A DNA stretch of 64,000 nt from Microlunatus phosphovorus NM-1 (GTDB lineage Bacteria > Actinomycetota > Actinomycetes > Propionibacteriales > Propionibacteriaceae), in the NCBI RefSeq assembly GCF_000270245.1, contig NC_015635.1, positions 1,860,001 to 1,924,000 of the forward strand, written 5' to 3'. Made by a program: the position numbers and the translations under genes. How positions within the stretch are numbered: position 1 is the first letter of the stretch; every line of letters starts with the position of its first letter. The notes beneath the pieces were generated by a model, which was not told the origin of the DNA, searched no databases, and was given only the letters and a program-made list of their open reading frames with translations. Below, piece by piece: positions 398 to 60,014 of the stretch.

Positions 398-401
398 AAC
401 A

Positions 402-441: not shown

Positions 442-601
442 GTTTAAGGGGAAAGTTGTCTGCTCCCTTCTTGCGGAGGTCACGAGTGTTCGGCGCCTGG
501 GGGCCACGGATGACCGCCGATAAGGCGGAAGCTGCGTACGTCTTGCGGCGCCGGGTCATAGACGCTCGCAAATCGCGCGCAGGGCCCGCAGAACCACGAA
601 C

Positions 602-1387
602 CTATTCGGCCGAGACCACGGTGATGCCGGCATCGCTGAAGGGTGCCGTCTGGTGAGGCTGGGGCGTGCCTGCGGTCAGGATCTGATCGACCACGTCGAT
701 CGGAGCCGCCTGGATGAATCCCGGAAGGCCCAGTTTTTCGGCTTCGAGCATCAGCCAGATCTGGTTCGCGGAGCGGACTTCGGCGGCGATGATGGCGGCG
801 GCCATCGGGGTGTCGGCGAAGATGCCACCTTCGACGGTGACGCCGGTCGGTGCGAGCAGTGCCAGATCGATCTGGAACCGGCCGATCTCGTCGAGTGCCC
901 AACCGCCTTGCTGGGCACGGGTTTCCTGCTCGACGCCGCCACCGACGTTGTAGATGTGCAGGCGTTCGACTCGGGACATGACCACCGCGACATCGAGGCT
1001 GTTGGTCACGATGGTCATGCCCTCCGCCTGCGGCCGGCGGCTCAATGACTCAGCCAGCACCCAGGTGAGGGGCGATGCTCCGATGAACACCGTCGCATCC
1101 GCGGGAAGACGGTCGATCACCAGTTCGGCGAGCCGAAGGTGCTGAGGTGGGTGCTCGGGGGTCGTGCCATCGAATGGAGAGAGTGGACGTTCGGTCCGGC
1201 GGACCGCGCCACCGTGTACCCGCTGTAGCACGCCTTGTTGCTCGAGCAGACGGAGGTCGCGTCGGATCGTCTCCGGTGCCACATCCAGGCTGCTGGCCAG
1301 GGTGCCGACCTCGACCCGACCGACCGCGTCGAGCCGATCGATGATGTGTCGATGCCGATCGGCCGCCGCCTCCACCTGTGTGGTCAC
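602..1387 (-). CDS. DeoR/GlpR-family transcriptional regulator
   Basis: A 261-residue sugar-responsive repressor. It has an N-terminal winged helix (about residues 10-65, with VAPETIRRDLRLLEQQGVLQRVHGGA, the family's recognition helix and wing) followed by the DeoR sensor domain (SPLTWVLAESL, TNSLDVAVV, DLALLAPTGV). The start is GTG with a GGGAGG ribosome site just upstream; that site lies in a small hairpin (CCTCC-ctca-GGAGG, 1394-1407). The gene is last in the minus-strand polyol operon, 26 bases after the dehydrogenase gene. It probably senses a phosphorylated or free sugar made by the operon and may repress it. A second DeoR gene faces the operon at 5844, so either could be the local repressor. 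Confidence 0.9.
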   Translation of the reverse strand: MTTQVEAAADRHRHIIDRLDAVGRVEVGTLASSLDVAPETIRRDLRLLEQQGVLQRVHGGAVRRTERPLSPFDGTTPEHPPQHLRLAELVIDRLPADATVFIGASPLTWVLAESLSRRPQAEGMTIVTNSLDVAVVMSRVERLHIYNVGGGVEQETRAQQGGWALDEIGRFQIDLALLAPTGVTVEGGIFADTPMAAAIIAAEVRSANQIWLMLEAEKLGLPGFIQAAPIDVVDQILTAGTPQPHQTAPFSDAGITVVSAE

Positions 1388-1413
1388 TCCATGCCTCCCT
1401 CAGGAGGGTCCGA

Positions 1414-2436
1414 TCACAACAGCTGCACCGATTCCCGGGTCTGGGGTCGGATCTGCAGCTTCCGGCCCCTACCGGCCCGGAACGCCTCCAGGGCCTCACC
1501 GTAGTCGTCCAGCGGGTACGCGTGACTGACCATGCGAGCCGCGTTGAGGGCTCCGGCGGCGAACATCTCCACCGCACGCGCATACGACGCCAGCACGGCC
1601 ATCGAGCCGACCATGGTGATCTCGTCGTTGTAGACCCCGAAGGGCGAGAACCTGGCGGTCGCGTCGACAGGTGCGACACCGAACTGTTGGAACACCCCAC
1701 CCCGCCGGACGCGGGTGAGCGCGTCCTCGATCGCGGCGACGACGCCAGTGCAGTCGATCACCACGTCCCAGCCGCCGGCATGATCGGCTTCATCGGCCGA
1801 GAGCGCCACGTCATCGATGCCGACGTCCCTGGCCACCTCGAGTCGGTCCGGATTACGGTCGATGACCGTCACACTGGCGGCGCCGGCGCGTGGCGCGAGC
1901 TGAGCCATCATCAAGCCCATCGTCCCGGCACCGTAGATCAGATAGTGCTCACCCATCCGCCGGGGGAGCAGATCGTAGCCGTGGATGGCACAGGAGAGCG
2001 GCTCGACCAACGCCGCCAGCGCGAGATCGACTCCATCGGGGAGTCGGTGGACGTTCCGCACCGGCGCGACCGTCAACTCGGCGGTCGATCCGTTGGTCCT
2101 GGCCACTCCGGACCCGTTCCATTGCTCGCACAGGTTGGCCCGTCCGACGGCGCAATACGCGCACTCACCACAGGTCAGCGTCGGATCGACCGAGACCCTG
2201 TCACCGATGGCGATCTCGGTGACCAGTTCACCCACCGCTTCGACGATGCCGGAGGTCTCGTGACCTGGGATGATCGGATAACGCGTCGGGGCGAACTCCC
2301 CGTCCAGGACGTGGATGTCGGTGCCGCAGATGCCCACCGCTTCGACCCGGACCAGCACCTCGCGGGGCCCAGGAACCGGATCGGGCACCTCCTCCAGCGA
2401 GAACGACTTGGGCTCGGTGAAGACGATGGCGCGCAC
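1414..2436 (-). CDS. Zinc-dependent alcohol/polyol dehydrogenase (MDR superfamily)
   Basis: A 340-residue medium-chain dehydrogenase, predicted to oxidise a polyol to a ketose with NAD(P). Visible landmarks are the catalytic-zinc cysteine (VGICGTDIH), the GHE motif (IIPGHETSG) and the structural-zinc cluster (CGECAYCAVGRANLC). A Rossmann region follows (YLIYGAGTMGLMMAQLA); its glycine pattern differs a little from the usual GxGxxG. The GTG start shares one base with the permease stop codon (TAGTG), so the two are translationally coupled; the open frame continues upstream only as a shadow of the permease gene. The nearest families are L-iditol/sorbitol and threonine dehydrogenases. The neighbouring polyol-type transporter favours a polyol substrate, but the exact one cannot be read from the sequence. 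Confidence 0.9.
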   Translation of the reverse strand: MRAIVFTEPKSFSLEEVPDPVPGPREVLVRVEAVGICGTDIHVLDGEFAPTRYPIIPGHETSGIVEAVGELVTEIAIGDRVSVDPTLTCGECAYCAVGRANLCEQWNGSGVARTNGSTAELTVAPVRNVHRLPDGVDLALAALVEPLSCAIHGYDLLPRRMGEHYLIYGAGTMGLMMAQLAPRAGAASVTVIDRNPDRLEVARDVGIDDVALSADEADHAGGWDVVIDCTGVVAAIEDALTRVRRGGVFQQFGVAPVDATARFSPFGVYNDEITMVGSMAVLASYARAVEMFAAGALNAARMVSHAYPLDDYGEALEAFRAGRGRKLQIRPQTRESVQLL

Positions 2437-3329
2437 TACTTCACCGCCCCCATGGCGAGGCCGCGTACCAGTCGCTTCTGGGCGAGCCAGCCGGCCACGA
2501 TCACCGGCAGCACCGCGATGGTGGACGCCGCCGACAAGATGGCGAGGAATTGGCCGCGTCCGTCCACGAAGCTGCCCAGGAACGGCGGGGTGGTCCGGGC
2601 GACCACCGCGGTGAGCAGGTTGGCCAGGAAGTACTCGTTCCAGGCAAAGATGAAGCAGATCAAGGCAGCTGCGGCCGCGCCCGGAGCGACGATCGGCAGC
2701 GACACTCGCCACAACTCGCGAGAGTAGGAAGCACCGTCGATCTGTGCTGCCTCCACCACCGCGATGGGCACCTCGGCGAAGAAGGAACGCATCATCCACA
2801 CCGCGAGCGGGAGGTTGATGCCGAGATAGAGGACGCCGAGGGCCCACAGATTGTCCAGCAAGCCGAAGGTCCGCAGCAGCAGGAAGACCGGGATGATCGA
2901 CGCTGCGACGGGCATGAACTTGGTGGAGATGAAGAAGAACAAGCCGTCTTGCCAGCGGATGATCGGTCGGACCGACAGCGCGTACGCAGCGGGAATGGCG
3001 AGCAGCATGACCACGATCGTCGAGCCGACGGCCAGGAACAGCGAGTTCAGCAGATAGAGCCCCATGCCGCGGTCGAAGACTGCGGCGTAGCCGTCGAAGG
3101 TCGGCGTGAAAAGGAACTGGGGCGGGAAGGACGCTGCCTGTCCCTCGGTCTTGAAGCTGGTGATGATCATCCACAGCACCGGGAAGAAGAAGATCAGCAC
3201 CACCACCCAGGTGAGCAGCGTGATCAGATAACCGATCACCTTGCGGCGAGTGAACGGGTTGGGCCCAGTGCGTTCGCGGGTGGCCTGCTGGGTCGTGTTG
3301 GTCGGGCGGGTCTCCGTCGTGGCGGACAT
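2436..3329 (-). CDS. Carbohydrate (polyol) ABC transporter permease, MalG type
   Basis: A 297-residue inner-membrane permease with six predicted membrane segments. The first is VIGYLITLLTWVVVLIFFF near residue 35 and the last is LSAASTIAVLPVIVAGWLAQ. The EAA loop that contacts the ATPase is seen as EAAQIDGASYSRELWRVSLP. The stretch STKFMPVAASIIPVFLLLRTFGLLD resembles the SmoG/sorbitol-mannitol permeases. The ATG overlaps the stop of the preceding permease (TGATG). No ATP-binding subunit is encoded in the operon, so a shared MsmK-like ATPase from elsewhere in the genome probably energises it. Confidence 0.92.
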   Translation of the reverse strand: MSATTETRPTNTTQQATRERTGPNPFTRRKVIGYLITLLTWVVVLIFFFPVLWMIITSFKTEGQAASFPPQFLFTPTFDGYAAVFDRGMGLYLLNSLFLAVGSTIVVMLLAIPAAYALSVRPIIRWQDGLFFFISTKFMPVAASIIPVFLLLRTFGLLDNLWALGVLYLGINLPLAVWMMRSFFAEVPIAVVEAAQIDGASYSRELWRVSLPIVAPGAAAAALICFIFAWNEYFLANLLTAVVARTTPPFLGSFVDGRGQFLAILSAASTIAVLPVIVAGWLAQKRLVRGLAMGAVK

Positions 3330-4294
3330 CAGCGGGCCTCCTCGGTGAAGATCGAGAACATGGTGCGCAAGGCCAACGTGGCGAACACGATGGTCAAGAT
3401 GACCGTGATCACCCCGTACGCGGCCGCTTCCCCGACTTGTTGGCCGATGAAGGCGCGCTCGTAGAGCAGATAGGCAATGGTCTTGGTGTTGCCGGCGCCC
3501 TTGGTCATGATGTTGATCGGGTCGAACACCTGGATCATGAACACGGTGCCCAGCAGGATGGCCAACTCGGCGTAGCTGCGCAGGTGGGGCAGAGTCATGT
3601 AACGGAAGGTCTGGAGGGCGTTGGCGCCGTCGACGTCAGCGGCTTCCAGCACCTCTCCGGCCTGCGACTGCAGACCAGCCAGCAGGATCAACATCATGAA
3701 CGGCGTGTATTGCCAGGTCATGGTGAAGACGATGGTCAGTGCCGGATGGTCGGTGTTCCAGGCAACTGCATCGATGCCCACCAGGCTGAGCGCCCAGTTC
3801 ACCATGCCGGTGTTGACCTCGAGCAAGGAGTATTTCCAGATCAGCGCCGCGGCAGCGGGCATCACCAGAAACGGGGTGATCAGCAGCGTACGGGCCAAGG
3901 CGCGTCCCTTGAACTCCCGATCGAGCAGTATCGCCAGCAGCAGACCGAGGATCAGGGAGAGGATCATCGAGCCGCCGACGATCCGGATGGTCGCCCAGAT
4001 CGAGGGCAGGAAGGCCCCGTTGGTGATGACCGCGATGTAGTTGTCGAACCCGGCGAACGAACGTTCCTCAGGCCGGGCCAGGTTCCAGTCCTGGAACGAG
4101 TAGTAGATCGTGGCCACGAACGGGATCTGGGTGACCAGGATCGCCACGATCAACGCGGGCATGATCAGCTTGCGACCGAACTTCCGCTGTGCCAGGTCCT
4201 GGCCTCTGAGGTCGGCCATGGTGATCTTGGTCTTCTTGCCCGACGGCACGGTCTTCGGCGCCTGGATGGCCGGGGTCTCGTCAACCGTACTCAT
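3329..4294 (-). CDS. Carbohydrate (polyol) ABC transporter permease, MalF type
   Basis: A 321-residue membrane permease, partner of the MalG-type subunit next to it. It has a first membrane helix near residue 45 (LIMPALIVAILVTQIPFVATIYYSF) and an EAA loop (LEAADVDGANALQTFRYMTLPHL). The ATG at 4294 was chosen because GGGGA lies at the right distance upstream and the gene then starts just after the stop of the binding-protein gene. A longer start at 4321 would overlap that gene. The two permeases and the lipoprotein form one importer. Confidence 0.92.
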   Translation of the reverse strand: MSTVDETPAIQAPKTVPSGKKTKITMADLRGQDLAQRKFGRKLIMPALIVAILVTQIPFVATIYYSFQDWNLARPEERSFAGFDNYIAVITNGAFLPSIWATIRIVGGSMILSLILGLLLAILLDREFKGRALARTLLITPFLVMPAAAALIWKYSLLEVNTGMVNWALSLVGIDAVAWNTDHPALTIVFTMTWQYTPFMMLILLAGLQSQAGEVLEAADVDGANALQTFRYMTLPHLRSYAELAILLGTVFMIQVFDPINIMTKGAGNTKTIAYLLYERAFIGQQVGEAAAYGVITVILTIVFATLALRTMFSIFTEEAR

Positions 4295-4295
4295 C

Positions 4296-5660
4296 TCAGT
4301 TCCCCTGCTTCTGGTTGTCACCGGCGCGTTGGGCGATCTTCTGTCCTTGGTCCAGCGCCAGGTCGAGAGGTCGTCGGCCGGCGATCACGTCGGCGAGCAA
4401 CTGGGAGGTCTGGTTGCCGACGTCTTGGAACTCGGGGATCGTGACGTACTGGATCCCGACCCACGGCTGTGGGTCGACGCCGGGATGCGTGGGGTCGACC
4501 TCGCTCATGATCTTCGCGGTCAGGGGCGCGAACTCGCCGCCGGCCTTGATGTACTCCGGGATGAGGTAGGTCGACTTGCGGGTGCCCGGCGGGGTGCGGG
4601 ACCAGCCCAGCTCCGATCCGACCAGCTTCGCGTACTCCTTGCTGGTGGCCCACTGGACGAACTCCCAGGCCTGCTCCTTGTGCTTGGACTCGGCGTTGAT
4701 GCCCAGGTTCCACGACCACAGCCAGCCCGAGTTCTCGGTCTTGTCGACCGGGGCGCGGACATAGCCGACCTTGCCGGCCACCTTGGAGTTGTTCGGGTCC
4801 TCCACCGAGCCGGCGGCCGACGTGGCGTCGTACCACATCGCCGCCCGCTCCTGGGAGAACAGGTTCAGGCACTCGGTGAAGCCGAATGACACCGGGTCGC
4901 CCTCACCGGAGGCGGCGAGGGTGTCGATGTAGAACTTCACCGCTTCTTTGTAGGCCGGCGAGTTGACCTGGGCCTGCCATTCCATGTTGTACCACTGGCC
5001 GCCGAAGGTGTTGATCACCGTCGTCAGCGGTGCGAACATCTCGCCCCAGCCCGGCTTCGCCCGCAGGCAGATCCCCGCTCGATCCGTGCTCGGATCCTTC
5101 AGCTTGCCCGCGTACTCCGCGATCTGCTCCCAGGTAGGTCGCTCGGGCATGGTGATGCCGGCCTGCTCGAACAGGTCCTTGCGATACATCAGGAACGACG
5201 ACTCACCGTAGAAGGGCACCGCGTACAGCCGACCGTCGAAGGAGACCCCGTCACGAACCGGCTTGAAGAAGTCGTTCACGTCGTAGGAGGGATCCTGGGC
5301 GGCGAGATCCGTCAGATCTTCCAGCCACTTGTTCTGACCCCAGATCGGCACCTCGTACGCGCCGACGGTCATGATGTCGTACTGACCGCCCTTGGTGGCG
5401 ACGTCCTTGGTGGCGGCGTTCCGCAGGTCGTTCTCCTCCATGAAGATCATGTTGATCTTGATGTCGGGATGGGTCTTGTTGAATTCCGGCAGCAGCTGGG
5501 CCATGTCCTGCATCTGCGGGTTGTTGACGCTGGCCAGGGTCACCGTCGTCACTCCGGGCTCGGTGCCCAGGTTGCCGAAGCCGGCGCAGCCGGAGACCGC
5601 GAGCGAGAAGCTGAGAGCAAGCCCGGCACCTGCCAGGCGTCGTTGCGTGGTGGTGGTCAT
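4296..5660 (-). CDS. Extracellular polyol/sugar-binding lipoprotein of ABC transporter
   Basis: A 454-residue family 1 solute-binding protein. A basic and hydrophobic signal ends in a lipobox (SLAVSGC, Cys near residue 26), so it is anchored to the outer face of the membrane. The mature start (VTLASVNNPQMQDMAQLLPEFNKTHPDIKINMIFMEENDLR, then DVATKGGQYDIMTVGAYEVPIWG) closely resembles SmoE-type sorbitol/mannitol binding proteins, which is the main reason for calling the system a polyol importer. The ATG at 5660 is preceded by GGAAGGCGG. It is the first gene of the operon binding protein - two permeases - dehydrogenase - DeoR. The open frame continues upstream without support. Confidence 0.92.
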   Translation of the reverse strand: MTTTTQRRLAGAGLALSFSLAVSGCAGFGNLGTEPGVTTVTLASVNNPQMQDMAQLLPEFNKTHPDIKINMIFMEENDLRNAATKDVATKGGQYDIMTVGAYEVPIWGQNKWLEDLTDLAAQDPSYDVNDFFKPVRDGVSFDGRLYAVPFYGESSFLMYRKDLFEQAGITMPERPTWEQIAEYAGKLKDPSTDRAGICLRAKPGWGEMFAPLTTVINTFGGQWYNMEWQAQVNSPAYKEAVKFYIDTLAASGEGDPVSFGFTECLNLFSQERAAMWYDATSAAGSVEDPNNSKVAGKVGYVRAPVDKTENSGWLWSWNLGINAESKHKEQAWEFVQWATSKEYAKLVGSELGWSRTPPGTRKSTYLIPEYIKAGGEFAPLTAKIMSEVDPTHPGVDPQPWVGIQYVTIPEFQDVGNQTSQLLADVIAGRRPLDLALDQGQKIAQRAGDNQKQGN

Positions 5661-48470: not shown

Positions 48471-49997
48471 GTGAACGTCCGACGGACACCTTCATCGGCG
48501 CGGCGCACCGCCGCGGCGAGCACACCGGCTCACGTGGTCGTGGTCGGGGCCGGTCTCTCCGGTCTGGCTGCGGCGCTCCATCTGGCCGGCGCGGGGCATC
48601 GGGTGACGGTGCTCGAACGAGAGACCGTGCCGGGCGGACGGTGCGGCTCGCTGGTGCAGGACGGGTTCCGGTTCGACACGGGCCCGACGGTGTTCACGAT
48701 GGTCGGTCTGCTGGACGAGGCGCTGCGCGCCGTGGGACGGTCTGCGGCCGAGGAGCTCGATCTCCGGCTGCTCGACCCGGCGTACCACACGTTCTTCGCC
48801 GACTCCTCCCGCCTGCGGGTCCGGCCCGGTCAGGAACCGATGCGGGCCGAGATCGCCGCCGAGTGCGGCAGCCGGGATGTGGCGGCCTTCGACCGTTTCG
48901 TGGCCTGGCTGAAACGGCTGCACGACGTCGAGCTGCCGCACTTCATCGACGCCAACTTCGACTCGCCGCTCGGTCTGCTGCGCTCACCCCGGGCGGTCGC
49001 CGAGCTGCTGCGACTGGGTGCTTTTCGCCGACTCGGACCCGAGATCGCCCGCCGTTTCGACGACGAGCGGCTCCGCCGGGTCTTCAGCTTCCAGGCGATG
49101 TACGCCGGACTCGCGCCGGCCCGGGCGCTCGCGCTGTACGCCGTCATCACCTATATGGACGTGATCGAAGGGGTGTGGTTCCCGGCCGGCGGCATGCACG
49201 CGGTGCCGCGGGCGATGGCCCGGGTGGCGGCCGAGAGCGGCGTGGAGTTTCGCTGGTCCACGACGGTCCAGCGGGTGGCTCGGCACTCGGACGGAGCGGT
49301 CGCCGGAGTGGTGCTGCCCGACGACGAGCTGGTCACCGCGGACGCGGTGGTCGTCACGGCGGACCTGCCCGCCGCGTACCAGCAGCTGCTGCCGGACCTC
49401 TCGCCGCCGCGCGGCGTGCGCAGGGGCCGCTACTCGCCGAGCGCGCTGGTCTGGCATCTGGGCGTCCGCGGTCCGCTGCCGGAAGGTACTGGTCACCACA
49501 ACATCCACTTCGGCGCTGCGTGGGACGACGCGTTCGCCGACCTGCTCGACCGGGGGATCCCGATGACCGACCCGTCCAGGTTCGTCGCGGTTCCTTCCCT
49601 GGACGATCCGACTGCCGCCCCGCCTGGCCAGCACACCGTCTATGTGCTGGAGCCGGTCCCCAACTTGGCGGTCGGCCGTCTGGACTGGGCCGTCGAGGGT
49701 CCCCGGCTACGCGAACGGATGCGGTCCTTCCTGGACGACGTCGGCTATCCCGCCGACATCGTGACCGAACAGCTCGTCACCCCGGTCGACTGGGCCGAGC
49801 AGGGCATGGCGGCAGGCACCCCCTTCGCGCTGGCCCACTCGTTCGGCCAGTCCGGACCCTTCCGGCCCCGCAACGTCGACCGGCGAGTCCCGGGTCTGGT
49901 CTTCGCCGGGTCGAGCACGACGCCGGGCGTCGGCATCCCGATGGTGCTGATCTCCGGCAAGCTCGCGGCTCGCCGGGTCCAGGAGGCACTGCGGTGA
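48471..49997 (+). CDS. crtI: Phytoene desaturase
   Basis: A 508-residue FAD enzyme taking phytoene to lycopene. The dinucleotide site is HVVVVGAGLSGLAAALHLAGAGHRVTVLERETVPGGRCGSLVQDGFRFDTGPTVFTM. The C-terminal carotenoid oxidoreductase signature is PGLVFAGSSTTPGVGIPMVLISGKLAARRV. The GTG start has GAGGGA upstream and lies 10 bases after the fusion gene. It overlaps crtB by GTGA. Confidence 0.95.
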   Translation: MNVRRTPSSARRTAAASTPAHVVVVGAGLSGLAAALHLAGAGHRVTVLERETVPGGRCGSLVQDGFRFDTGPTVFTMVGLLDEALRAVGRSAAEELDLRLLDPAYHTFFADSSRLRVRPGQEPMRAEIAAECGSRDVAAFDRFVAWLKRLHDVELPHFIDANFDSPLGLLRSPRAVAELLRLGAFRRLGPEIARRFDDERLRRVFSFQAMYAGLAPARALALYAVITYMDVIEGVWFPAGGMHAVPRAMARVAAESGVEFRWSTTVQRVARHSDGAVAGVVLPDDELVTADAVVVTADLPAAYQQLLPDLSPPRGVRRGRYSPSALVWHLGVRGPLPEGTGHHNIHFGAAWDDAFADLLDRGIPMTDPSRFVAVPSLDDPTAAPPGQHTVYVLEPVPNLAVGRLDWAVEGPRLRERMRSFLDDVGYPADIVTEQLVTPVDWAEQGMAAGTPFALAHSFGQSGPFRPRNVDRRVPGLVFAGSSTTPGVGIPMVLISGKLAARRVQEALR

Positions 49998-50893
49998 GCA
50001 ACCTGCTCGATGTCGGCTACTCCCGCTGCGCCGACCTGACCAAGCGCTACGGCACCACCTACTACTGGGGGGCCCGGCTGCTGCCGGTTGCGCAGCGCCG
50101 TGACGTCCACGCCGTGTACGCGCTGTGCCGGCTGGCTGACGACATCGTCGACGAGCCGGAGCGGGACAACCCGGCAGTGTCGCGCCGAGGCACGGCTGCG
50201 GAGCGTCTGGAAGTGTTCCGGCACCAGTTCTTCACCGCCTTGTCCCGTGGCACCTCGCCGGAGCCGGTGATGGCGGCCGTCGTCGACAGCATCCGGCGTC
50301 GCGGCACGGATCCGGAGTGCTTCGAGCGCTTCTTCGACGCCATGGCCGCCGACCTGACGCGGACCACCTGGGCGACCTGGGAGGAACTGCGCGATGGCTA
50401 CATGGAAGGGTCGGCGGCGGTCATCGGCGAGATGATGCTGCCGGTGCTGCAGCCGTACACCCCGGCTGCGATCGGCCCGGCTCGATCGCTGGGCCTGGCA
50501 TTCCAACTGACCAATTTTCTTCGCGACGTCGGCGAGGACCTCGACCGAGGCCGGGTCTACCTGCCTCAGGCCGATCTGGCCCGGCACCGCGCCGACCCGC
50601 GGCTGCGGCGGGTGACGCCGGCGTGGCGAACCATGATGGCCGAGCAGGTCGCCCGCAACCGTCAGCTGTATGCCCACGCCCAGACCGGGTTGCCGCTGCT
50701 GCCGCCGCCCTCGCAGCGCTGTGTGGGCACGGCGCTGGTGCTGTACAGCCGGATTCTCGACCGCATCGAGGCGGCTGACTACGACGTCTTCACCGAGCGC
50801 ATTCGGGTGCCGGATCGCGAGAAGCTCCATCTCCTGGTCCGGGCGGTGACCATCGGCGTTCCGGAGGTCGACTTCCAGCCGCGGGCGGCCTGA
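49994..50893 (+). CDS. crtB: Phytoene synthase
   Basis: A 299-residue squalene/phytoene synthase condensing two GGPP. The first Asp-rich motif is VYALCRLADDIVDEPE, and the second is QLTNFLRDVGEDLDRGRVYLP. GYMEGSAAVIGEMMLPVL is also typical. It is the last gene of the plus-strand crt operon. Its TGA lies at the edge of the IS1380 element: the five bases CTGAG that include the stop are the element's target duplication. Confidence 0.95.
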   Translation: MSNLLDVGYSRCADLTKRYGTTYYWGARLLPVAQRRDVHAVYALCRLADDIVDEPERDNPAVSRRGTAAERLEVFRHQFFTALSRGTSPEPVMAAVVDSIRRRGTDPECFERFFDAMAADLTRTTWATWEELRDGYMEGSAAVIGEMMLPVLQPYTPAAIGPARSLGLAFQLTNFLRDVGEDLDRGRVYLPQADLARHRADPRLRRVTPAWRTMMAEQVARNRQLYAHAQTGLPLLPPPSQRCVGTALVLYSRILDRIEAADYDVFTERIRVPDREKLHLLVRAVTIGVPEVDFQPRAA

Positions 50894-52439
50894 GCCCTGA
50901 TCCACCGAGCCTTATCGGATCGTGGATTCTGGCTGATTTTGTCGGCTGATTCTTGGTCTGTTTGGGAATGGGCGTGACGGTGTCGCCGGTCTGCTCGGCA
51001 TTTCCACTGTCGTTGTCCTTGGTCGTGCCCGGGTGAGGCGGGTGGTCAGGCGGTCTGGGCGAGGGGTGGCCCCAATGTCGCTTCTTTTAGGGTTGGGGTG
51101 GTTTGAGGGGGTGGAGGACGATGGTGTGGGTGACGGTGCGGACTGGTGCGGCGTTGCTCTTGCGGCGTTCGTAGCGGTGGGAGCCGCCGCGTTTACGGGC
51201 GCGGGGTGCGGTGCGGCCGTCGCGGGTGGGGATCAGGTTGGCGGGTTTGGTCAGTTGCGTGGCGAGGTGGGCCAGGGCGCGGGTCAGGTCGGCTGGGGGG
51301 AGAGAGCCGCCCGGGTCGTGGAGTCCTGGGCGGCTTGGAAGGCGCGTTTGAAGCTGATCCGGCCGGGGTCGAGCCCGGCGGGTGTGGCGTAGCCGATCAG
51401 GTCGCGGATCGCCTGGTAGACGCACAGCATGGCCCAGAATTCTTGCTCGACCATGATGGGGGTCTTGGAGCGGAGCAGCACTTCGGGGCCGCCGCGGATG
51501 GTGGTCTTCAGGTCGGCGATACCGGTCTCGGCCTGCCAGCGGGCGTGGTAGAGCTGGGCCAGCTCGATCGCCGGGTACGCCTGCGCGTCGAGCAGGGTGG
51601 TGGCCAGCGCGAACAGTTCGGAGGTCTCGACCCCGTGGGTGTCGGTGGTGGTCACCGAGTACTCGACCACCCGGACCGGGATCGGGTCGCCGTCCTTCTT
51701 GGAGGGCGGGTTCAGCTGGGACAGGTAGGTGCCGTCGTCCAGCACCTGCCGCACTGGCAGAGTGAACGATGCCGACATCCGCCAGCACAGCTGCGCGCCG
51801 GTCCCGGCGGCCGCCTGCCACAGCTTCCAGGAGGCGAAGTTCCGGTCGGCCAGCACCAGCATCCCGCTGTCGAGCGCGGGCAGCAGATCGACGGCCAGGG
51901 TCTGCTCGCCGGTGCTGGACGGCCCATGGGCGGCGGCCAGCAGCACCCGGGTTCCGGACTCGGCCAGCACCAGCGCCCGCAGCTGCGGATACGGATTCTG
52001 CGACCTGCTGCCGTTGCCACCACGGCCGAAGAACCCCTCGTTCGCCGCCGTGTCCGGCACATCCAGGGTGAACCCGTCGACCGTCACCACCCGCAGCCCG
52101 GCATGAAAGACCCCGGGCGTCACAGGCGTCCCCGCCGGCACCGTCGTCCGCGCAAACAACAGCTTGAACGGCTCCGCGCCCAGCTTCGCCTTCGCCTTCG
52201 TGATCGATCCCGTTCCCGGAGCCTGCCAGTCTCCCCAGCCGCCACCCGTCAACGCCTGCGCATCGGCCAGCCTCGACAGCACCAACCCGTACCCCGACCG
52301 CATGAACAGCCAGCACGCCAGCGTGAATACCATCATCAACCGAGCCGGCAGCCGCCGATACCGGACCTCCTGTGGACTTCCCCCCGTTTGACGGACACCT
52401 GACCTGAGGTGGCCACTGGTCACCAGGGAGGATGTCGTT

Positions 52440-52733
52440 GTGCCTGCTCCTCACCCGCCTGAGTTCCGCCGTCGTGCGGTCGAGCTTGCTCGTGAGCGGT
52501 CCAAGCCAGTTGCTGAGTTGGCGAAAGATCTGGGAATTTCCGAATCGTGTCTGCGTCGCTGGATGGAGCAGTCCGAGACCGACGCTGCCGGTGGTAGCGA
52601 GACGGCGTTGACCAGTCGGGAGAAGAAGGAGCTGGTCGAGCTGCGCCGGGATAAACGGCGCCTGGAGATGGAAGTCGAGATCTTGAAAAGGGCGGCCGCC
52701 TATTTTGCCCAGGAGAATGTTCTCCCAAAATAG
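52440..52733 (+). CDS. IS3-family transposase OrfA (helix-turn-helix)
   Basis: A 97-residue DNA-binding protein: HPPEFRRRAVELARERSKPVAELAKDLGISESCLRRWMEQ is the helix-turn-helix, followed by a leucine-zipper region (ELVELRRDKRRLEMEVEILKRAAAYFAQEN). The GTG start has AGGGAGG upstream. Near its stop is CCCAAAA in the frame C CCA AAA, a slippery heptamer that allows -1 frameshifting into orfB. Confidence 0.9.
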   Translation: MPAPHPPEFRRRAVELARERSKPVAELAKDLGISESCLRRWMEQSETDAAGGSETALTSREKKELVELRRDKRRLEMEVEILKRAAAYFAQENVLPK

Positions 52734-53623
52734 TGTACGGGCTGGTCCATGAAATGGCCGATGACGGGATTGATGTCGCGGTGGCTTGCCGGGTGCTGAA
52801 TGTGTCGCGGTCGGGATACTACGACTGGCGCGGCCGGCCTGCATCGGCACGGGAACAGGAGAACACGCTGCTGTTGAAGCTGATCGAGGAGATCCATGCC
52901 GATGAGGACATGAAGACGTACGGGGCGCCGCGGGTGCACGCCGAGCTGGTCTTGGGGCACGACCTGCAGGTGAACCAGAAGCGGGTCGCCCGGCTGATGC
53001 GCCAGGCCGGCATCCAGGGCCTGTACCGGCGGCGTCGGTCGTGGACCACGATCCGGGACCCGCACGCCATCCCCGCCAAGGACCTCGTCAACCGCCGGTT
53101 CACGGTGGACGGTCCGAACCGGTTGTGGCTGACCGACATCACCGAGCACCCGACGGTGGAGGGCAAGGTGTACTGCGCCGCGGTCATGGACGCCTGGTCC
53201 CGCCGGGTCCTGGGCTGGTCCATCGACGACAACATGCGGAAGGAGCTCGTGGTCGACGCGCTCGGGATGGCGGTGCTGCGGCGCAACCCGATGGACGTCG
53301 ACAATAACACGATCATGCATTCCGATCACGGGTCGCAATTCACATCGTGGGCATTCAGTCAGAAAGTCTATGATGCCGGGCTGGTGCCGTCGATGGGCAG
53401 TGTGGGCGACTGCTACGACAATGCGATGATGGAGTCCTTCTGGGAGAGAATGCAACTCGAGCTGCTCGATTCGCAGGTATGGTTCACCCGGGACGAGCTT
53501 GCCAACGCGATGTTTCGATGGATAGAATCATGGTATAATCGGAGACGTCGGCATTCGAGTATTGGAATGCTGTCGCCGATAGAGTTTGAAACCCGTTCCA
53601 CAGGGTCAGACCGTCCGGGCTGA
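52733..53623 (+). CDS. IS3-family transposase OrfB (DDE integrase)
   Basis: A 296-residue catalytic protein. An HTH_21 domain (TYGAPRVHAELVLGHDLQVNQKRVARLMRQAGIQGLYRRR) precedes the rve core. DDE residues lie in NRLWLTDITEHPTVEGKVY, MHSDHGSQFTSW and SVGDCYDNAMMESFWERMQLELL. The end is WYNRRRRHSSIGMLSPIEFE. It appears intact. It is probably made mainly as an OrfAB fusion by -1 frameshifting (TAGTG overlap, CCCAAAA). The last 250 bases are more AT-rich than the rest. Confidence 0.93.
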   Translation: MYGLVHEMADDGIDVAVACRVLNVSRSGYYDWRGRPASAREQENTLLLKLIEEIHADEDMKTYGAPRVHAELVLGHDLQVNQKRVARLMRQAGIQGLYRRRRSWTTIRDPHAIPAKDLVNRRFTVDGPNRLWLTDITEHPTVEGKVYCAAVMDAWSRRVLGWSIDDNMRKELVVDALGMAVLRRNPMDVDNNTIMHSDHGSQFTSWAFSQKVYDAGLVPSMGSVGDCYDNAMMESFWERMQLELLDSQVWFTRDELANAMFRWIESWYNRRRRHSSIGMLSPIEFETRSTGSDRPG

Positions 53624-53817
53624 CCCTCAACCCCGAGTGTCCGTGGAACAGGGGGAACCTCACCCGCACCCCTGCCGCCTCGATCACCTCATCCAGCACC
53701 GCCGCCGGGAACGACCGTGCCAGCACCCCGATCGAGACCCGATCAGGCAACCGCTCCTCCGCCGACCTCACCTCACGCGTCACACCAGCCACAAACAGAG
53801 ACTACACCCATGTAACT

Positions 53818-55218
53818 CTAAAGAAGCGACATTGGGGGTGGCCCGGTCGCGCCGTCGAATGTCTGCTGCCATTGGTCGGCCCAGGCCCAGTCGCGGGGCA
53901 GGTGCAGGATCATCGTGCGGGCGGTGGTGGCGATCCGGGCGGGCAGGTTGATCAACTGGGCACGGAGAGTGGCCCACCGGGCTCGGGCATGGGCCTTGCC
54001 GGCGAGGACACCGATGGCGCGGGCCAGGTTGAACGCGATCACCGCGTGCGCGAGCCAGGCCGCGTTCGCCCCGTAACGGCCGGACGGTAGGTGGGCGAGC
54101 GGTCCGTCTTTGAGCTCGGCGATGACCTGCTCGATGATCGCGTGGTCACGATGGTGTTGATCGGCGGCGATCGTGGTCAGGGTGGAGTTGGTGATGAACG
54201 CGTGGTGGCGGTGTGCGGCGAACAGCTCACCCTGCACGGTGCCGTCGGAGGCGGTTGGCTGCAGCCGGCGGACCCGCCGCACCACGAGTCGGCAGGGCAC
54301 CTGCTGAGCCTTCTTCTTGCTGGAGAACGCGACAAAGGAGGTCTCGGCGACCTCAGCATCGGAGACCCAGTAGCCGCCACCGGGCACGGTGTCATCGGCT
54401 TCCCAGACCGCGTTCGGATACTTGATCGGAACCCATGCCTGCTCAGGGATGCGGGTGATCGCGGTCTTCACCGCCGTGTTCTTCCGGGCCGTCACCGAGA
54501 ACCACATCTTGGCTTTGATCATGGCCGTGACCAGGTCATGGCGGTAGAACGCTGAGTCCGCCCGACCCATCAGCCGGCCACTCACACCGGCCTGCCGGGC
54601 CGTCGCCGCGGCGCGGGTCAGCATCCGCGCCGACCCTTTTCCCGAGGCGGTGTTCCCTCGGCGCAGTGCGGAGGCCACGATCACCGGTGCCGTCAACGGG
54701 GTCGAGCAGACTGCGAGCATCGCGTTCAACCCGAACACCTTGGAGTAGCCGTAGGCGGCGGCCTGCTTGGCGTAGCCGTGGACCTCACGGATCGTGTCGT
54801 CCACGTCGAGGAACGCGATCCCGTCCCGGTCGCTTCCACCGCGGATCAGGTCCGGCACCCGGGCCGTGAGCCCGGCCAGCAACCGGGAGTTGACCGCATC
54901 GAGCTGCTGGACGTGTCCGTGGGTGAACGAACGCAGATAGGTGCCGTACGTGGACGGGGCCCGGGTCCCGCCGAGCAACCTTGGCATCCCACCATGGCGC
55001 ACCACGTTCAAGTCGTCGATGCTGTCCGCCCCGGTCAACATCCCCGCGATCACCCCAGCCGACTTCACCACCGGGTTCGGGCAGTCCACACTCACATGCT
55101 CACCGAGCAGCTCATGCAGACCCGCTGACTCACCCAACAGCAGCGCCGGCACCAAACCGGCGCAACCCACCAGATTCGGATCATCGAAAACCGGCCGAAC
55201 GGTATGGCATGCTTTCAC
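53818..55218 (-). CDS. IS1380-family transposase, C-terminus altered by IS4 insertion
   Basis: A 466-residue DDE transposase. Catalytic regions are GIAFLDVDDTIREVHGYAKQAAAYGYSKVFGLNAM, SGRLMGRADSAFYRHDLV and RDHAIIEQVIAELKDGPLAHLPSGRYGANAAWL. The IS4 insertion changed only the last residues: the present end is GATGPP-PMSLL, whereas the sequence beyond the insertion (read across 51064) would restore GATGPP-LAQTA. It may still be functional. ATG 55218. Confidence 0.9.
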   Translation of the reverse strand: MKACHTVRPVFDDPNLVGCAGLVPALLLGESAGLHELLGEHVSVDCPNPVVKSAGVIAGMLTGADSIDDLNVVRHGGMPRLLGGTRAPSTYGTYLRSFTHGHVQQLDAVNSRLLAGLTARVPDLIRGGSDRDGIAFLDVDDTIREVHGYAKQAAAYGYSKVFGLNAMLAVCSTPLTAPVIVASALRRGNTASGKGSARMLTRAAATARQAGVSGRLMGRADSAFYRHDLVTAMIKAKMWFSVTARKNTAVKTAITRIPEQAWVPIKYPNAVWEADDTVPGGGYWVSDAEVAETSFVAFSSKKKAQQVPCRLVVRRVRRLQPTASDGTVQGELFAAHRHHAFITNSTLTTIAADQHHRDHAIIEQVIAELKDGPLAHLPSGRYGANAAWLAHAVIAFNLARAIGVLAGKAHARARWATLRAQLINLPARIATTARTMILHLPRDWAWADQWQQTFDGATGPPPMSLL

Positions 55219-55350
55219 CTACGAGATGTCCCCTCTGACTTGCTCGAATGACGGCGTCGTAACCACCATTCTCCCTGGTCAGGGGGACATTCTCGGTCTC
55301 AGGACACGCCCCCAAAGCCACCAGATTTCATGATCATCGGTGGATCAGGG

Positions 55351-55364
55351 CTGAGTCACCGTCG
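55351..55364. repeat. Left copy of the 14-bp direct repeat flanking the NACHT gene
   Basis: CTGAGTCACCGTCG here is identical to 58471-58484. The right copy is the 3' end of crtU with its stop codon. The left copy would join directly to the crtB stop if the IS1380 element were removed. The two copies bound a 3.1-kb segment that holds only the NACHT NTPase gene. Confidence 0.85.
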
Positions 55365-55376
55365 GACGCTGAACCT

Positions 55377-55408
55377 CACCTGACCTGCACCTGATCTCAC
55401 CTGACCTG
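55377..55408. repeat. Three CACCTGA direct repeats, 10-11 bp apart
   Basis: CACCTGA occurs at 55377, 55388 and 55398, on one face of the helix. The outer two lie within a longer repeat, CTCACCTGACCTG, at 55375-55387 and 55396-55408. They sit between the left direct repeat and the 3' end of the NACHT gene. They could be recombinase or regulator binding sites. Confidence 0.75.
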
Positions 55409-55443
55409 GGGCGAATAGGAGCACTTGCACTTGCACTCGCCGT

Positions 55444-58425
55444 CTACGGCTTTGCAGTAAGCTTCTCCCAAAATCGCCTGACATCCTCCTGGTGGCGACC
55501 GCGAAGGATGACGTTGAGGGGATAATTAAACGTCACAACCAACTTTGCCGGACCTGAGGCATTCAGGGGTTTGGAGTTTGCCACTTCCGAATCCAGCGCT
55601 GCGCTGGTAATTGCCGCCCATTCTTGACTCTTCGGTTTGTACAACCCCTTTGGGGTGTTTTCGCCTGGAATTCGATTGGACTTCTGTACAACAAAGAAGT
55701 ATTCTTCGCGCTGTAGCATCCGCGTGAGGGCGGCTTCAGCGAACTCCTCGATCGGCGATCGTGAGGAACTAGCAACATTCTCTACAATCCGATCTTGGGC
55801 GCCCGTCACTCCCAGTCTGTCCAGTTCTGGCCAGATGTGTCGTTGAGTAGCGAAGTATCGAACTCCGGAACCATCCGACGTTATGACTAGTTCGTCGATA
55901 CTCGTCGAACCGTCAATAGACAGTGTTGACGAAACGGCGGAAATTGCCGAAATCTGAAGTTGGCCGATGGAGCATTCCGAAAGCGAAATGTGAGCACGCA
56001 TGGGTGTGTGTACTGCAGCTAGCTTGCAGTTCACCAGCGAGATCGAAGTATCGGCGGTATCCGGTGAGACTCTCACCTCCTGCAGATCGCACGATTCGAT
56101 GACGGCAATGTGTCGACTCTCGCCGGATGACAGTAGGTGCCCGGCGAGCGCCGAGCAATTCTGGCGTAAGTAGCTATCGACGACACACCTAGCTACGGCA
56201 GCTTCCAAGGTGTGTAAGACTTCGGGGCGGTGATTGGCAACGAGATCCTCGATAGTCTTGTCGCCAAGAGCTCCCCGATTCAAGAAATCAGCGCAGCGCG
56301 AGTAGTTTGTGGATTCGAAGAATTGCTGTACTATGTACGATGCCAGGAATGACTCGTAGAAGAGGTCGTGCTCGAATCGGAATCCGATGGAACCTTGCTC
56401 TCCTGTTACAGATAGGCCGCATAGCACCGACATTCTGGCAGCCAGGGCCCGATGCCTGGAGTCCGATAGCTCTATACCGAGTGCGTAAGACGCGGCGTCC
56501 TCAAACTCGACCTGAGTCACTGAGGCGCTCGTTGATTCGTAGATTAGGCCAGCAATTTCACGGAACACCGTATGCAAGATGTCGGTCGTGATTTCATCTT
56601 TGGTAGATGGTTCCAGTTTGCCAATTTCCCTGTCCAGATAGCCGTCAATTAGGACCGCGTGTAAGTCAATCGTGGCAGGAGCGGTTTTAATGGTTGCTGC
56701 GTAGGAGTTGAACATCCGACTGAAGAATGGTACGCCAAGTAGGGCGAGATCTTCCTTCGTAAGGAGAGGGCGCAGTTTTCGCCAATGGGGATTCGCCTTG
56801 AAGAGGGAGTCGACCTCGGTCGGCGTCCATCTTTCGAGCTCCAGTACGGTGTGACGAGCTGAGGTGTACCCGACAGCGTGCTCGCGCTTGCGGAGGCTGG
56901 ACCTATATTGGTTTGCAAGATATGAGGAGCGGGCTGATACGATTAGGACGCCACGATCACCTAGGCGCTCGATCGTGGGTGCAAGGACTTTGTATGCATC
57001 GTTGTACCCAGCACCTTCAATCAGCTCGTCAAATCCATCGATTACAACTACAAGAAGTCCGTTTCTGCAAAGGGCCAAGACTGAGTCGAAGTTTAGGTTT
57101 TGAGTATTTACAACCTCTGAATTGACAATCTCGGCAAAGGTTTGCAGGCTTCTTCCGGCACAGCTTATGTATAGGAAAATTGGAACGTCGATGTTGTTGT
57201 CATTCGATACCGCTTGGTGGCGAGCTTTGGTCATCTCAAGAAGGTTGTAAGTCTTCCCAATGCCGGCCTCGCCGGTCAGGAAGAAGACCTGCGGTAGGCC
57301 GGCAGTCGAACGTGCGGCATCATCGAGTGCTTTGCTGAGATCAGTAGTGTCATCAATACCTTCTGCAATATCGGCACCTAGTAGAACTTGTGGCCGGAAC
57401 TTGGTACGGATATCATTCGGTATTTGCAGCATCTTCGACTCTGAGGCTATGCGCTGGGCCTCGATGTGGTCGTCGTCGTAGATCTTGTCGAACCTAGTGT
57501 GAAGGCGCCTGACGACGACTCCCCAGTTGACTATATCTCGAATAAAGGCTGAATAGCTTACCCATTCATTCCGGGGATCTCGCCACTGACGTTGATTGTC
57601 GGCGGCAACTCTGAAAACTTCACTGCGGGGAACGTCGTTTGAACTAGTGCGTTGGGTCCATTCGAGGCTAATCTGTCCGTCGCGCAGATATTCGAACGTT
57701 GCGTTTGTGTCGTCTGCTGTCAGTCCCTCGATATCTGATTTAATGGACTGAATCAGCAGGTGCAATTGCTGATAGCGCTGCGACCGAGGTGCTTCGAGAA
57801 GGTTCCTGAGGACGCTCGTGGCCGACTCGTCCGGCAATTCTACGGGCGGTGCTGCCGCGCCGACCAGTATATACGATGGCGGTTTTCCGTTTCGCCAAGA
57901 ATGAAAGAGTAGTGCCGTTTCTCCACTCGGGATTAGTAGCGGCCAAATTGGCGTGGAGCCGATGTGCATGACATTGTTGCTGACGTGTAGTCCGCCTGAA
58001 TCTGCAATGAATTTCGTAAGTGCATCGGTTGCTGCTTGGGCAGAGTTGCGCCATCGGTCAACGGCTTCTTTGTCCTGTGTAGGCAGTCCACCGTGGCTGA
58101 TGGTGTTTCGTTCTTCGAGCGCGTCGACATAGCCGATTGTGTGTGGCCGAGACCACGTTTCAACGATGAGCGAGCAGAGGGTTCTTGCTGCTGGGGACAC
58201 GTTAGAGGAGAGGCTCAGTACCTGGTGCAGACTCCGGAATGTTCCGGCGCCACCCGACCGGGGATATCGAACGTCGAGCGTGGTTCCTGCCGACGTTGTG
58301 AGGACTAGGGCCGCCGCGATCCGACTCAGTAGCTCTAGGTAGCTGCCAAACTGGTTTGTGCTTGCGCGTGCGCTCCATCCGTCGTGACGAGACATCAGAG
58401 GCAGGTGCACTGGTCGCTGAGTCAT
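55444..58425 (-). CDS. NACHT-type STAND NTPase with HEPN-like N-terminus (probable anti-phage defence protein)
   Basis: A 993-residue protein. Residues 1-145 are helical and hold RNTISH (R106-H111), the RN-x3-H pattern of HEPN ribonucleases. Residues about 345-620 form the NTPase: Walker A FFLTGEAGIGKTYNLLEM (385-392) and Walker B LLVVVIDGFDELIEG (D463, D466, E467), then VLIVSARSS. The helical end FRFEHDLFYESFLASYIVQQFF (683-704) is typical of NACHT proteins. Residues about 770-855 are short beta repeats (ISLVNCKLAAVH, ISLSECSIGQLQ, LSIDGSTSIDELVI), like a pentapeptide or beta-solenoid sensor. The bases are visibly poorer in GC than the flanks. No known operon partner. Domain roles are inferred from families such as Avs and bacterial NACHT. 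ATG 58425 lacks a clear ribosome site; ATG 58395 is possible. Confidence 0.82.
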   Translation of the reverse strand: MTQRPVHLPLMSRHDGWSARASTNQFGSYLELLSRIAAALVLTTSAGTTLDVRYPRSGGAGTFRSLHQVLSLSSNVSPAARTLCSLIVETWSRPHTIGYVDALEERNTISHGGLPTQDKEAVDRWRNSAQAATDALTKFIADSGGLHVSNNVMHIGSTPIWPLLIPSGETALLFHSWRNGKPPSYILVGAAAPPVELPDESATSVLRNLLEAPRSQRYQQLHLLIQSIKSDIEGLTADDTNATFEYLRDGQISLEWTQRTSSNDVPRSEVFRVAADNQRQWRDPRNEWVSYSAFIRDIVNWGVVVRRLHTRFDKIYDDDHIEAQRIASESKMLQIPNDIRTKFRPQVLLGADIAEGIDDTTDLSKALDDAARSTAGLPQVFFLTGEAGIGKTYNLLEMTKARHQAVSNDNNIDVPIFLYISCAGRSLQTFAEIVNSEVVNTQNLNFDSVLALCRNGLLVVVIDGFDELIEGAGYNDAYKVLAPTIERLGDRGVLIVSARSSYLANQYRSSLRKREHAVGYTSARHTVLELERWTPTEVDSLFKANPHWRKLRPLLTKEDLALLGVPFFSRMFNSYAATIKTAPATIDLHAVLIDGYLDREIGKLEPSTKDEITTDILHTVFREIAGLIYESTSASVTQVEFEDAASYALGIELSDSRHRALAARMSVLCGLSVTGEQGSIGFRFEHDLFYESFLASYIVQQFFESTNYSRCADFLNRGALGDKTIEDLVANHRPEVLHTLEAAVARCVVDSYLRQNCSALAGHLLSSGESRHIAVIESCDLQEVRVSPDTADTSISLVNCKLAAVHTPMRAHISLSECSIGQLQISAISAVSSTLSIDGSTSIDELVITSDGSGVRYFATQRHIWPELDRLGVTGAQDRIVENVASSSRSPIEEFAEAALTRMLQREEYFFVVQKSNRIPGENTPKGLYKPKSQEWAAITSAALDSEVANSKPLNASGPAKLVVTFNYPLNVILRGRHQEDVRRFWEKLTAKP

Positions 58426-58470
58426 GAGTGAGTTTTGCACACTGGGAATGCGATTGGTGAGCGGCCCAAG

Positions 58471-58484
58471 CTGAGTCACCGTCG
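58471..58484. repeat. Right copy of the 14-bp direct repeat flanking the NACHT gene
   Basis: CTGAGTCACCGTCG, identical to 55351-55364. It includes the TGA stop codon of crtU (complement of TCA at 58476-58478), so the insertion used the end of crtU as one border. Part of it (GCTGAGTCA) is found once more at 58416-58424 at the start of the NACHT gene. Confidence 0.85.
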
Positions 58485-60014
58485 TCCCAACAGTCCCCGC
58501 ATCGGCACCGTCCACAGGTCCACGCCGGCAACGCCCCAGTCCTCGAGCAGCGCATTGGCCGCCAGGAAGCCGGTCGTCGCGGCGCGCTCCATCAACGCCA
58601 CCGGGTAGTCGCAGCGGACCCAATCCCCGGCGAGCATCAGCCGCGGCGACGGGGTCCGAACACCAGGCCGTTCTGTCCATCGATCGGGTCCGATCAGGGT
58701 GCAGTCGTCGCGGACCAGCAGCTCCTGCGCGGTGACGGTCGCAGCGGCGGTCTCGGGATAGGCCCGATGCAGTTCTGCCTGCAGCCGAGCGGCGAGTGCG
58801 GCGGCGTCTGGATCCGAGCCGACCGCGGGGTCGCAGGCGTACGCGTGCAACTCCACCACCGAGCCGCGGTGCTCACGGCTCCAGCGGGCTGCGCCTGCTT
58901 CGAAGCGTTCCAGCACCGAGACATTGTCGAGCGGTCCGTAGCCCGAGGTGCCGAGGAAGGCCGGCCGCGCGCCGTCGACAGGTTCGTCGAGCCAGAGCCG
59001 GACCACCGCGAAAGGCGGGGCATTGCGAGTGGCGGCCACCGCGGCCCGCCAGCCGGAGACCTTGTCGCGGTCCTGGTGGTCGCCTTGCTGAGCGGCCACC
59101 AGCTTCCTGGCCGAGCGAGGATCTGTGGCCAGCACCACGGCATCGCAGCCGATCGACTGCTCGTCGAGCCCGACGATCGCGCCGTCCTCGGTCAGGTCGA
59201 GGGAGTGGACGGGCGCGCCGGTCGCCAGCTCGACCCCGAGTCCACGAAGTCGCTCGGCCAGCGGAGCCCAGAGGACCGTGTCGTAGTCGTCGGTGGGCAC
59301 GTCGAAGAGCAGCCCCTCGGCCGAACCCAGGAAATAGGTGTGGAACATGGCCACCAGCTCACCGGCGCCGAACTCGGCCGGGTCGGCGAAGAAGGACCGG
59401 GCGAATACCTCCAACGCCAGATCGCGGGCGTCCGTGGGAAATCGGAGCCGGTCCAGGAACGCGGCGGCCGACTCTCCGTCATAGGCGGAGTAGGTCTCGG
59501 GAAACCGGACCCGGAGCAGCTCCAGCGCCGCCGAGGCGTCGACCCGCGACAGCCCGCGAAGCGTGAACGCCGGGCTGCGCAGCACGAACTGCAGCAGCGA
59601 CCAGGGCGGGGTCTTGGCGAGCCCGGTGAAGGAGTCACGCAGACCGTCCGGTCGCTGCAACGGGTAGTCCTCGATCGGGGTGAGGAAGGCCAGATCCGGA
59701 TCGATGCGCCGCAGCAGACTGCGCAGGTTGTAGTACTGCCGGAAGAAGGCATGGAAGCCCCGGCTCATGGTGCGGCCGTCGCCCAGCGGCCACGACGCCA
59801 CCCGACCACCGAGGCGGTCGGTCGCCTCCAGAAGCGTCACGCGTACGCCGCGCTCGGCGAGCGCGGTGGCCGCCGCCAGGCCGGCGACGCCGCCGCCGAT
59901 CACCACGACGTGCCGGGGTTCGGTCGCTCGGGGAGCGCCGACCGGGCCGGGGTGGCGTACGGCACGGCGATCCCTTCCGGGCCGGGCGACGGCGGAACGC
60001 CGAGCACGGGTCAC
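58476..60014 (-). CDS. crtU: Isorenieratene synthase (beta-carotene desaturase/methyltransferase) CrtU
   Basis: A 512-residue FAD protein. The nucleotide site is HVVVIGGGVAGLAAATALAERGVRVTLLEATDRLGGRVASWPLGDGRTMSRGFHAFFRQYYNLRSLLRR; the second half of this stretch matches CrtU of Streptomyces and Brevibacterium rather than CrtI. LALEVFARSFFADPAEFGAGELVAMFHTYFLGSAEGLLFDVPTDDYD is also typical. It should convert beta-carotene to the aromatic isorenieratene by desaturation with methyl shift. The GTG start overlaps the methyltransferase stop (GTGA). It is the last gene of the minus-strand crt operon. Confidence 0.9.
   Translation of the reverse strand: MTRARRSAVARPGRDRRAVRHPGPVGAPRATEPRHVVVIGGGVAGLAAATALAERGVRVTLLEATDRLGGRVASWPLGDGRTMSRGFHAFFRQYYNLRSLLRRIDPDLAFLTPIEDYPLQRPDGLRDSFTGLAKTPPWSLLQFVLRSPAFTLRGLSRVDASAALELLRVRFPETYSAYDGESAAAFLDRLRFPTDARDLALEVFARSFFADPAEFGAGELVAMFHTYFLGSAEGLLFDVPTDDYDTVLWAPLAERLRGLGVELATGAPVHSLDLTEDGAIVGLDEQSIGCDAVVLATDPRSARKLVAAQQGDHQDRDKVSGWRAAVAATRNAPPFAVVRLWLDEPVDGARPAFLGTSGYGPLDNVSVLERFEAGAARWSREHRGSVVELHAYACDPAVGSDPDAAALAARLQAELHRAYPETAAATVTAQELLVRDDCTLIGPDRWTERPGVRTPSPRLMLAGDWVRCDYPVALMERAATTGFLAANALLEDWGVAGVDLWTVPMRGLLGRR

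Follow-up and report, generated by a model that had tools for sequence, protein, structure and literature searches.

A candidate NACHT immune receptor gene with a HEPN-like N-terminus at the crtB-crtU junction of Microlunatus phosphovorus NM-1

Bacterial proteins in which a HEPN domain is fused to a STAND nucleoside triphosphatase (NTPase) were described in 2013 (Anantharaman et al., PMC3710099), and newly validated defence systems are reported, in the relevant part of a later account, to include NACHT domains (in DS-8, with a metallophosphatase) and HEPN domains (PMC13092281). Here we analyse a 64-kb stretch of the genome of Microlunatus phosphovorus NM-1 (NC_015635.1), called the window throughout, in which a single gene for a 993-residue protein with a NACHT module and a HEPN-like N-terminus lies in an insert (region 55351-58484) between the pigment genes crtB and crtU. 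The original prediction held that this combination of domains has no named precedent, which the passages of the 2013 paper on HEPN-STAND fusions show to be an overstatement. In our view it is reasonably probable that the insert was acquired horizontally and that its one gene encodes a bacterial immune receptor of the NACHT (STAND) type, and we propose a mode of action for it as well as a way in which it entered the crtB-crtU junction.

The insert consists of 3,106 bp with a low guanine plus cytosine (GC) content of 53.8%, bounded by identical 14-bp copies of CTGAGTCACCGTCG at 55351-55364 and 58471-58484, both read on the forward strand, and a genome-wide count finds this 14-mer at these two places only in the 5,683,123 bp of the genome. 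Its sole gene (55444-58425, minus strand, recognised as an open reading frame with a NACHT profile match) runs for 993 codons without an internal stop and encodes the protein we label P0001; the GC content at third codon positions (GC3) is 57% for this gene as opposed to 85% for crtU and 88% for crtB. The remainder of the insert is a 79-bp trailer 3' of the gene (55365-55443) and a 45-bp leader 5' of it (58426-58470). The right copy of CTGAGTCACCGTCG contains the crtU stop (TCA at 58476-58478) and the last two crtU codons, while the left copy, when an IS1380 element at its edge is omitted, opens with the third base of crtB's final codon, followed by the crtB stop (TGA, 50891-50893), a single further base and the nine terminal bases of crtU. 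Since the left word holds the crtB stop and the end of crtU, and the right word the end of crtU, the repeat reads as the old junction present twice. The main points had been claimed beforehand, namely identical 14-bp repeats around a lower-GC segment with one 993-residue gene, a right copy formed by the crtU end including its stop, and a left copy that joins the crtB stop once the IS1380 element with its CTGAG duplication is removed, and each part is confirmed.

Genome-wide uniqueness, together with simulation, rules out a chance repeat. The longest word common to the two 100-nt edges, with the IS1380 element omitted, is 14 bases long, and the maximum in 3,000 first-order Markov simulations was 12. 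The repeat measures 15 bp when the element is kept in place, and a 15-base word shared by three of 3,000 random window pairs is presumably this same repeat.

The junction itself was compared with 49 related loci of about 2.9-4.5 kb, comprising the best 29 non-own crtU loci from a search of 147 genomes of the family and 20 of the 28 non-own loci of the genus (L021-L023, L029-L031, L033 and L034 were left out). Among the family loci, crtB is in view at 21 and convergent on crtU at 16, the other five being arranged otherwise; the gap between the two genes is at most 228 nt at 14 of the 16 and 0.9-1.2 kb at two (L112, with a Rieske gene, and L091), and the gap at L097 is unreliable, as the alignment there covers crtB residues 1-176 only. 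When stop positions are taken from the in-frame extension of tblastn ends, the two stops overlap or lie no more than 33 nt apart at nine of the 16 convergent loci: they overlap in L087, L096 and L101 and are separated by 0 (L088), 3 (L110), 4 (L085), 12 (L095), 19 (L090) and 33 nt (L099). Convergent, gene-free junctions thus occur in other species of the family, and they support the ancestral junction of the original prediction; the contrary pattern, in which relatives all carry the gene without flanking repeats, was not found. That the gene is ancestral to the genus is ruled out, since the 19 remaining genomes of the genus gave no match at E 1e-3 and none of the 49 crtU loci (29 family, 20 genus) gave a tblastn match. 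On these comparisons, an insertion into a pre-existing convergent crtB-crtU junction appears supported.

Within the genus, some crtU-like match, in several cases a short one, is present in 19 of 20 genomes (own included). A Rieske/DUF5914-type gene lies between crtB and crtU at all seven genus loci with crtB in view, so that the genus junction would be misleading as an empty site, and it was set aside; in L008 (420-1439) the stop of this gene overlaps the crtU stop. By tblastn, crtU of NM-1 is 66-75% identical to the 29 family loci, which come from other genera, versus 57-63% to the 20 loci of its own genus, and it looks as if the pigment cluster may have moved or the genus may be mixed.

The NACHT module of P0001 occupies residues 380-512 (56890-57288, minus strand), with GEAGIGKT at 385-392 and IDGFDEL at 462-468, and matches the Pfam family PF05729 NACHT (E-value 4.7e-6, score 27.0 bits, cutoff 26.7); GxGK and DGFDEL are invariant across 10 aligned rows. 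A structure model computed from P0001 and nine viral relatives has a mean predicted local distance difference test (pLDDT) score of 58.8, with values mostly of 60-85 in the NACHT region, and its top Foldseek matches in the PDB are NLRC4, NLRP9, NLRP3, NAIP5 and CED-4 (E 4e-8 to 2e-6). In the viral library the top match (1.3e-9) is to a phage protein whose name derives from the NLR family CARD proteins. P0001 is a NACHT NTPase, as had been proposed, for the Pfam match and the NLR-type best structural matches bear this out and the model does not lack a NACHT fold. Further towards the C-terminus, residues 774-848 (55882-56106, minus strand) form a strand-rich stretch in the model that aligns with pentapeptide-like stretches of relatives; Pentapeptide_4 matches stay below cutoff in those relatives, and P0001 has none.

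At the other end of the protein, residues 24-142 (58000-58356, minus strand) are helical, at low confidence, in both models that we made, the second being a single-sequence model of residues 1-350 (pLDDT 34.6). HEPN domains, as characterised in the motif description of PMC3710099, are about 100-120 amino acids long and are marked by Rx4-6H with a polar residue following the arginine and by an acidic residue often found in Ex3[KR]. The P0001 N-terminus carries both marks, as E31-x3-R35 and R106-N-x3-H111; the second, RNTISH at residues 106-111 (58093-58110, minus strand), is the predicted ribonuclease (RNase) motif. In a relative from genome G391, 26% identical in the N-terminal region, E-x3-K and R-N-x3-H stand at the aligned places, and R106, N107 and H111 are invariant between the two. 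A HEPN domain is likely here; no Pfam HEPN profile and no PDB sequence matches it despite the two kept motifs, and we call it HEPN-like and not HEPN, the earlier HEPN proposal being supported by its motifs and the models being too low in confidence to add a fold match. The missing profile match, along with the best PDB sequence match of the N-terminus, a non-significant one (E 0.13) to 28 residues of the CRADD death domain, would fit another helical domain, for example a Death-like adaptor, with the gene acting by other means. We regard this alternative as doubtful, for both HEPN motifs are kept at 26% identity and the sister cassettes described below have an RNase-like partner.

Relatives were sought with the protein or a two-row profile in 146, 396, 199, 394, 66 and 391 genomes, overlapping draws that all belong to the phylum of the window. 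The protein of G391, 921 amino acids long and 29% identical, is the sole second full-length fused protein found in these draws. Other relatives, in G084 (at two places), G540 and G1137, are of a kind paired with a NYN-like gene; G093 and large actinomycete-type matches are more distant NACHT proteins, and the latter were dropped as relatives, their blastp matches being mostly confined to the NACHT part. A scan of viral contigs added 11 loci, each with a NACHT protein of 710-739 amino acids (one cut by the contig end), and the nine that were aligned match P0001 from about residue 222 to the C-terminus. Directly 5' of the NACHT gene, at 10 of these 11 loci, stands a gene of 205-263 amino acids (the contig of the eleventh ends there), the spacing between the two ranging, with mechanically assigned start codons, from a 23-nt overlap to 2 nt apart.

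An alignment of 11 such partners (eight viral and those of G1137, G084 and G540) has five invariant aspartates and a K-x-V-D-T block. Pfam NYN was matched by four of the seven partners scanned, with P0003 (5.3e-5) right on the cutoff and the other three beneath it; in PADLOC, three of the same number gave HEC-09 at 2e-5 to 9e-5, one a weak AbiH match and three nothing, and a PDB search with the partner alignment returned no match. We therefore treat the NYN label as reasonable but not formal. The cassettes (L135 at 357-3384, L140-L150, L040 at 1910-5049, L043 and L004) are unmatched as a PADLOC system, and one of the two pairs in G084 is found on a small contig, next to an open reading frame that by eye looks transposase-like (L040, 1-12000). 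A tree of 15 rows groups the two fused proteins (97/96); both are long branches whose join may be false, and the tree gives no ordering of the fused and paired states. Kinship of the inserted gene to two-gene NYN-like plus NACHT cassettes was absent from the original prediction and is new here. Since the nearest relatives include such pairs, the HEPN-like domain, present in cis, seems to take the place of a NYN module supplied in trans, as though one NACHT body plan could be served by either RNase-like module. Further scans of genome contigs and viral contigs yielded nothing useful, and PHROGs gave nothing below 0.01. A known plasmid origin was rejected, with no tblastn match at 1e-5 to P0001 or its G391 relative in 72,556 plasmid records, and so was a known phage origin, with none to P0001 at that threshold in 50,697 phage records.

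In the mode of action that we propose, the C-terminal part would sense an invader or its effects, upon which the NACHT module would bind ATP and oligomerise; the oligomer would pair the N-terminal HEPN-like domains, and these would cut RNA and stop the infected cell. The gene would have entered the convergent crtB-crtU junction, with the 14 bp spanning both stop codons now on both sides, leaving both pigment genes whole and riding on transcripts that run on from crtU. Sensing, RNase activity, defence and read-through expression are all predictions for P0001, whereas the geometry of the insertion, its foreign composition, the resemblance to NACHT, the two conserved HEPN marks and the kinship to NYN-like plus NACHT cassettes are directly observed. 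What favours this reading is a unique repeat beyond anything simulated, gene-free convergent junctions in relatives, GC and GC3 that are low here and in the G391 relative too, the NACHT matches, HEPN marks kept in G391, an NYN-like RNase in the sister cassettes, and the lack of any terminator or promoter seen after crtU. Several results weigh against it. The NACHT match barely exceeds the Pfam cutoff, the Foldseek template modelling scores are low (at most 0.26 among the PDB matches when normalised to the query), with ORC/Cdc6 ATPases placed closely after the NLR-type matches; model confidence is low for residues 24-142, and the N-terminus has no HEPN profile or PDB match; PADLOC (0 families at E 1) and NCBIfam have no match to P0001; there is a single other full-length relative; and among the loci compared no sister strain was seen with the exact empty site, that is, with the 14-mer in single copy.

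The inserted gene has the same direction as crtU and begins 50 nt past the crtU stop, a position that would make it a possible last cistron after crtU, a point the original prediction had not raised. No promoter-like or terminator-like site is listed between the two, the scan yielding no more sites than shuffled sequence did, and expression is probably by read-through from crtU. The fused gene of G391 similarly lies 41 nt past a same-direction carboxyltransferase gene, and both fused genes face a convergent gene and are GC-poor relative to their hosts; two cases make no rule, and selection against the loss of a stop codon would suffice to account for both. As a second clean insertion G391 was rejected, its congeners being arranged otherwise, with similarity that ends at the carboxyltransferase stop.

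On either side the pigment genes are intact. To the left is crtB, for phytoene synthase (49994-50893, plus strand; Pfam SQS_PSY 9.7e-66), whole to its stop, and to the right crtU (58476-60002, minus strand, start codon unfixed; Pfam Amino_oxidase 3.5e-39 and related loci), beyond which profile matches place a methyltransferase and then two lycopene cyclase subunits on the same strand. The left edge of the insert is interrupted by the IS1380-family insertion sequence (IS) element (50895-55350), identified by inverted ends and NCBIfam and split by nested IS4-type and IS3-type elements (NCBIfam matches of 4.9e-86, 5.3e-45 and 6.4e-94 for IS1380, IS4 and IS3, respectively). The IS4-type element has inverted ends at 51070-51087 and 53820-53837 and itself contains the IS3-type transposase. 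The target duplication of the IS1380 element, CTGAG, is found at 50890-50894 and 55351-55355, so that the left edge of the 14-bp repeat coincides exactly with an edge of the 5-bp duplication, and CTGAG additionally brackets the whole block of IS and gene (50890-50894 and 58471-58475). A transfer RNA (tRNA) gene as the insertion site is excluded, none having been found within the window.

Three routes could leave such a repeat: integration of a circle at a chance identity, joining at a staggered break that has been filled in, and the action of a transposase in trans. Repeats made by recombination at homologous sites are distinguished, in the portion of PMC6563490 bearing on this, from target duplications made by staggered cleavage and fill-in. 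We lean slightly towards entry without a dedicated mobile element, in which either a circle or plasmid piece with the gene recombined where it happened to share 14 bp with the chromosome, or foreign DNA was joined to a staggered break after fill-in. The insert has no terminal inverted repeats and, as foreseen, no integrase of its own, and neither a second copy of it nor of its ends is present in the genome; under uniform bases, a 3.1-kb circle and this genome should share about 132 14-mers by chance. Against this, transposition would yield an identical end product, and no donor circle or end-joining genes turned up, though no search was aimed at them. Loss of a stop codon would damage a pigment gene, so survivorship suffices to explain the position of the insert, and the earlier claim that a mobile unit targeted the junction is not borne out.

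Transposase-less cassettes such as MIC231 exist, and a transposase or integrase acting in trans could have mobilised the gene as a cassette, duplicating 14 bp of the target. Long duplications have precedents: those of IS4 subgroups measure 10-13 bp, and those of two elements in the IS1634 family 8-514 bp, in the sections of PMC2266710 that treat them. We think this route rather unlikely, as the insert lacks terminal inverted repeats and another copy, and no repeat apart from GC-rich words flanks the G391 relative. More improbable still is carriage by the IS1380 element. Units of the ISEcp1 type do carry adjacent genes, the outer CTGAG pair encloses IS and gene together, and the IS and repeat edges coincide exactly; however, this would require the 14 bp immediately within the IS end to match the target by chance, and the right end of the insert is unlike the IS end. 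Equally speculative, and to our minds improbable, is a broader scheme in which a family of RNase-armed NACHT receptors swaps a separate NYN gene for a fused HEPN, the fused form travelling as a bare gene, devoid of integrase and terminal repeats, that a trans-acting enzyme places as last cistron behind host operons with a 14-bp duplication.

On the reading we prefer, that of an acquired NACHT immune receptor, the locus offers a well-bounded acquisition of a bacterial NLR-like protein, with a foreign gene, an inferable empty site and both neighbours intact, and it links what was an orphan gene to an apparently widespread NYN-like plus NACHT cassette. A defence gene accompanied in its transfer by no more than 45 and 79 bp of its own flanking sequence would bear on the spread of such genes beyond defence islands. 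Should the RNase swap be true, it could be asked directly if a single NACHT receptor plan operates two unrelated RNases, one in cis and one in trans.

Among known systems, the HEPN-STAND fusions resemble P0001 in having an N-terminal HEPN, a STAND NTPase and the Rx4-6H and Ex3[KR] marks, whereas P0001 has a strand-rich C-terminal part and lacks a profile-level HEPN match, the likeness resting on the description in the corresponding part of PMC3710099. The bNACHT antiphage proteins share the plan of effector, NACHT and C-terminal sensor, but their effector, as given in the pertinent sections of PMC12169576, is a PD-(D/E)XK DNase in clade 6 and none discernible in clade 14, while the predicted effector of P0001 is HEPN-like. 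With Avs proteins it has the STAND plan in common, and the PADLOC Avs4 model weakly matches L141, a viral relative (0.0036), although no PADLOC model matches P0001 itself. For the NYN-like plus NACHT cassettes, or for an exchange of NYN and HEPN, no description was found in the portions of the open-licence literature that were covered. It is these cassettes (L140-L150, L135, L040, L043 and L004) that align with P0001 throughout, from the NACHT module to the C-terminus, and they differ from it in that the RNase-like partner is a separate gene and the NACHT protein has no N-terminal HEPN-like part.

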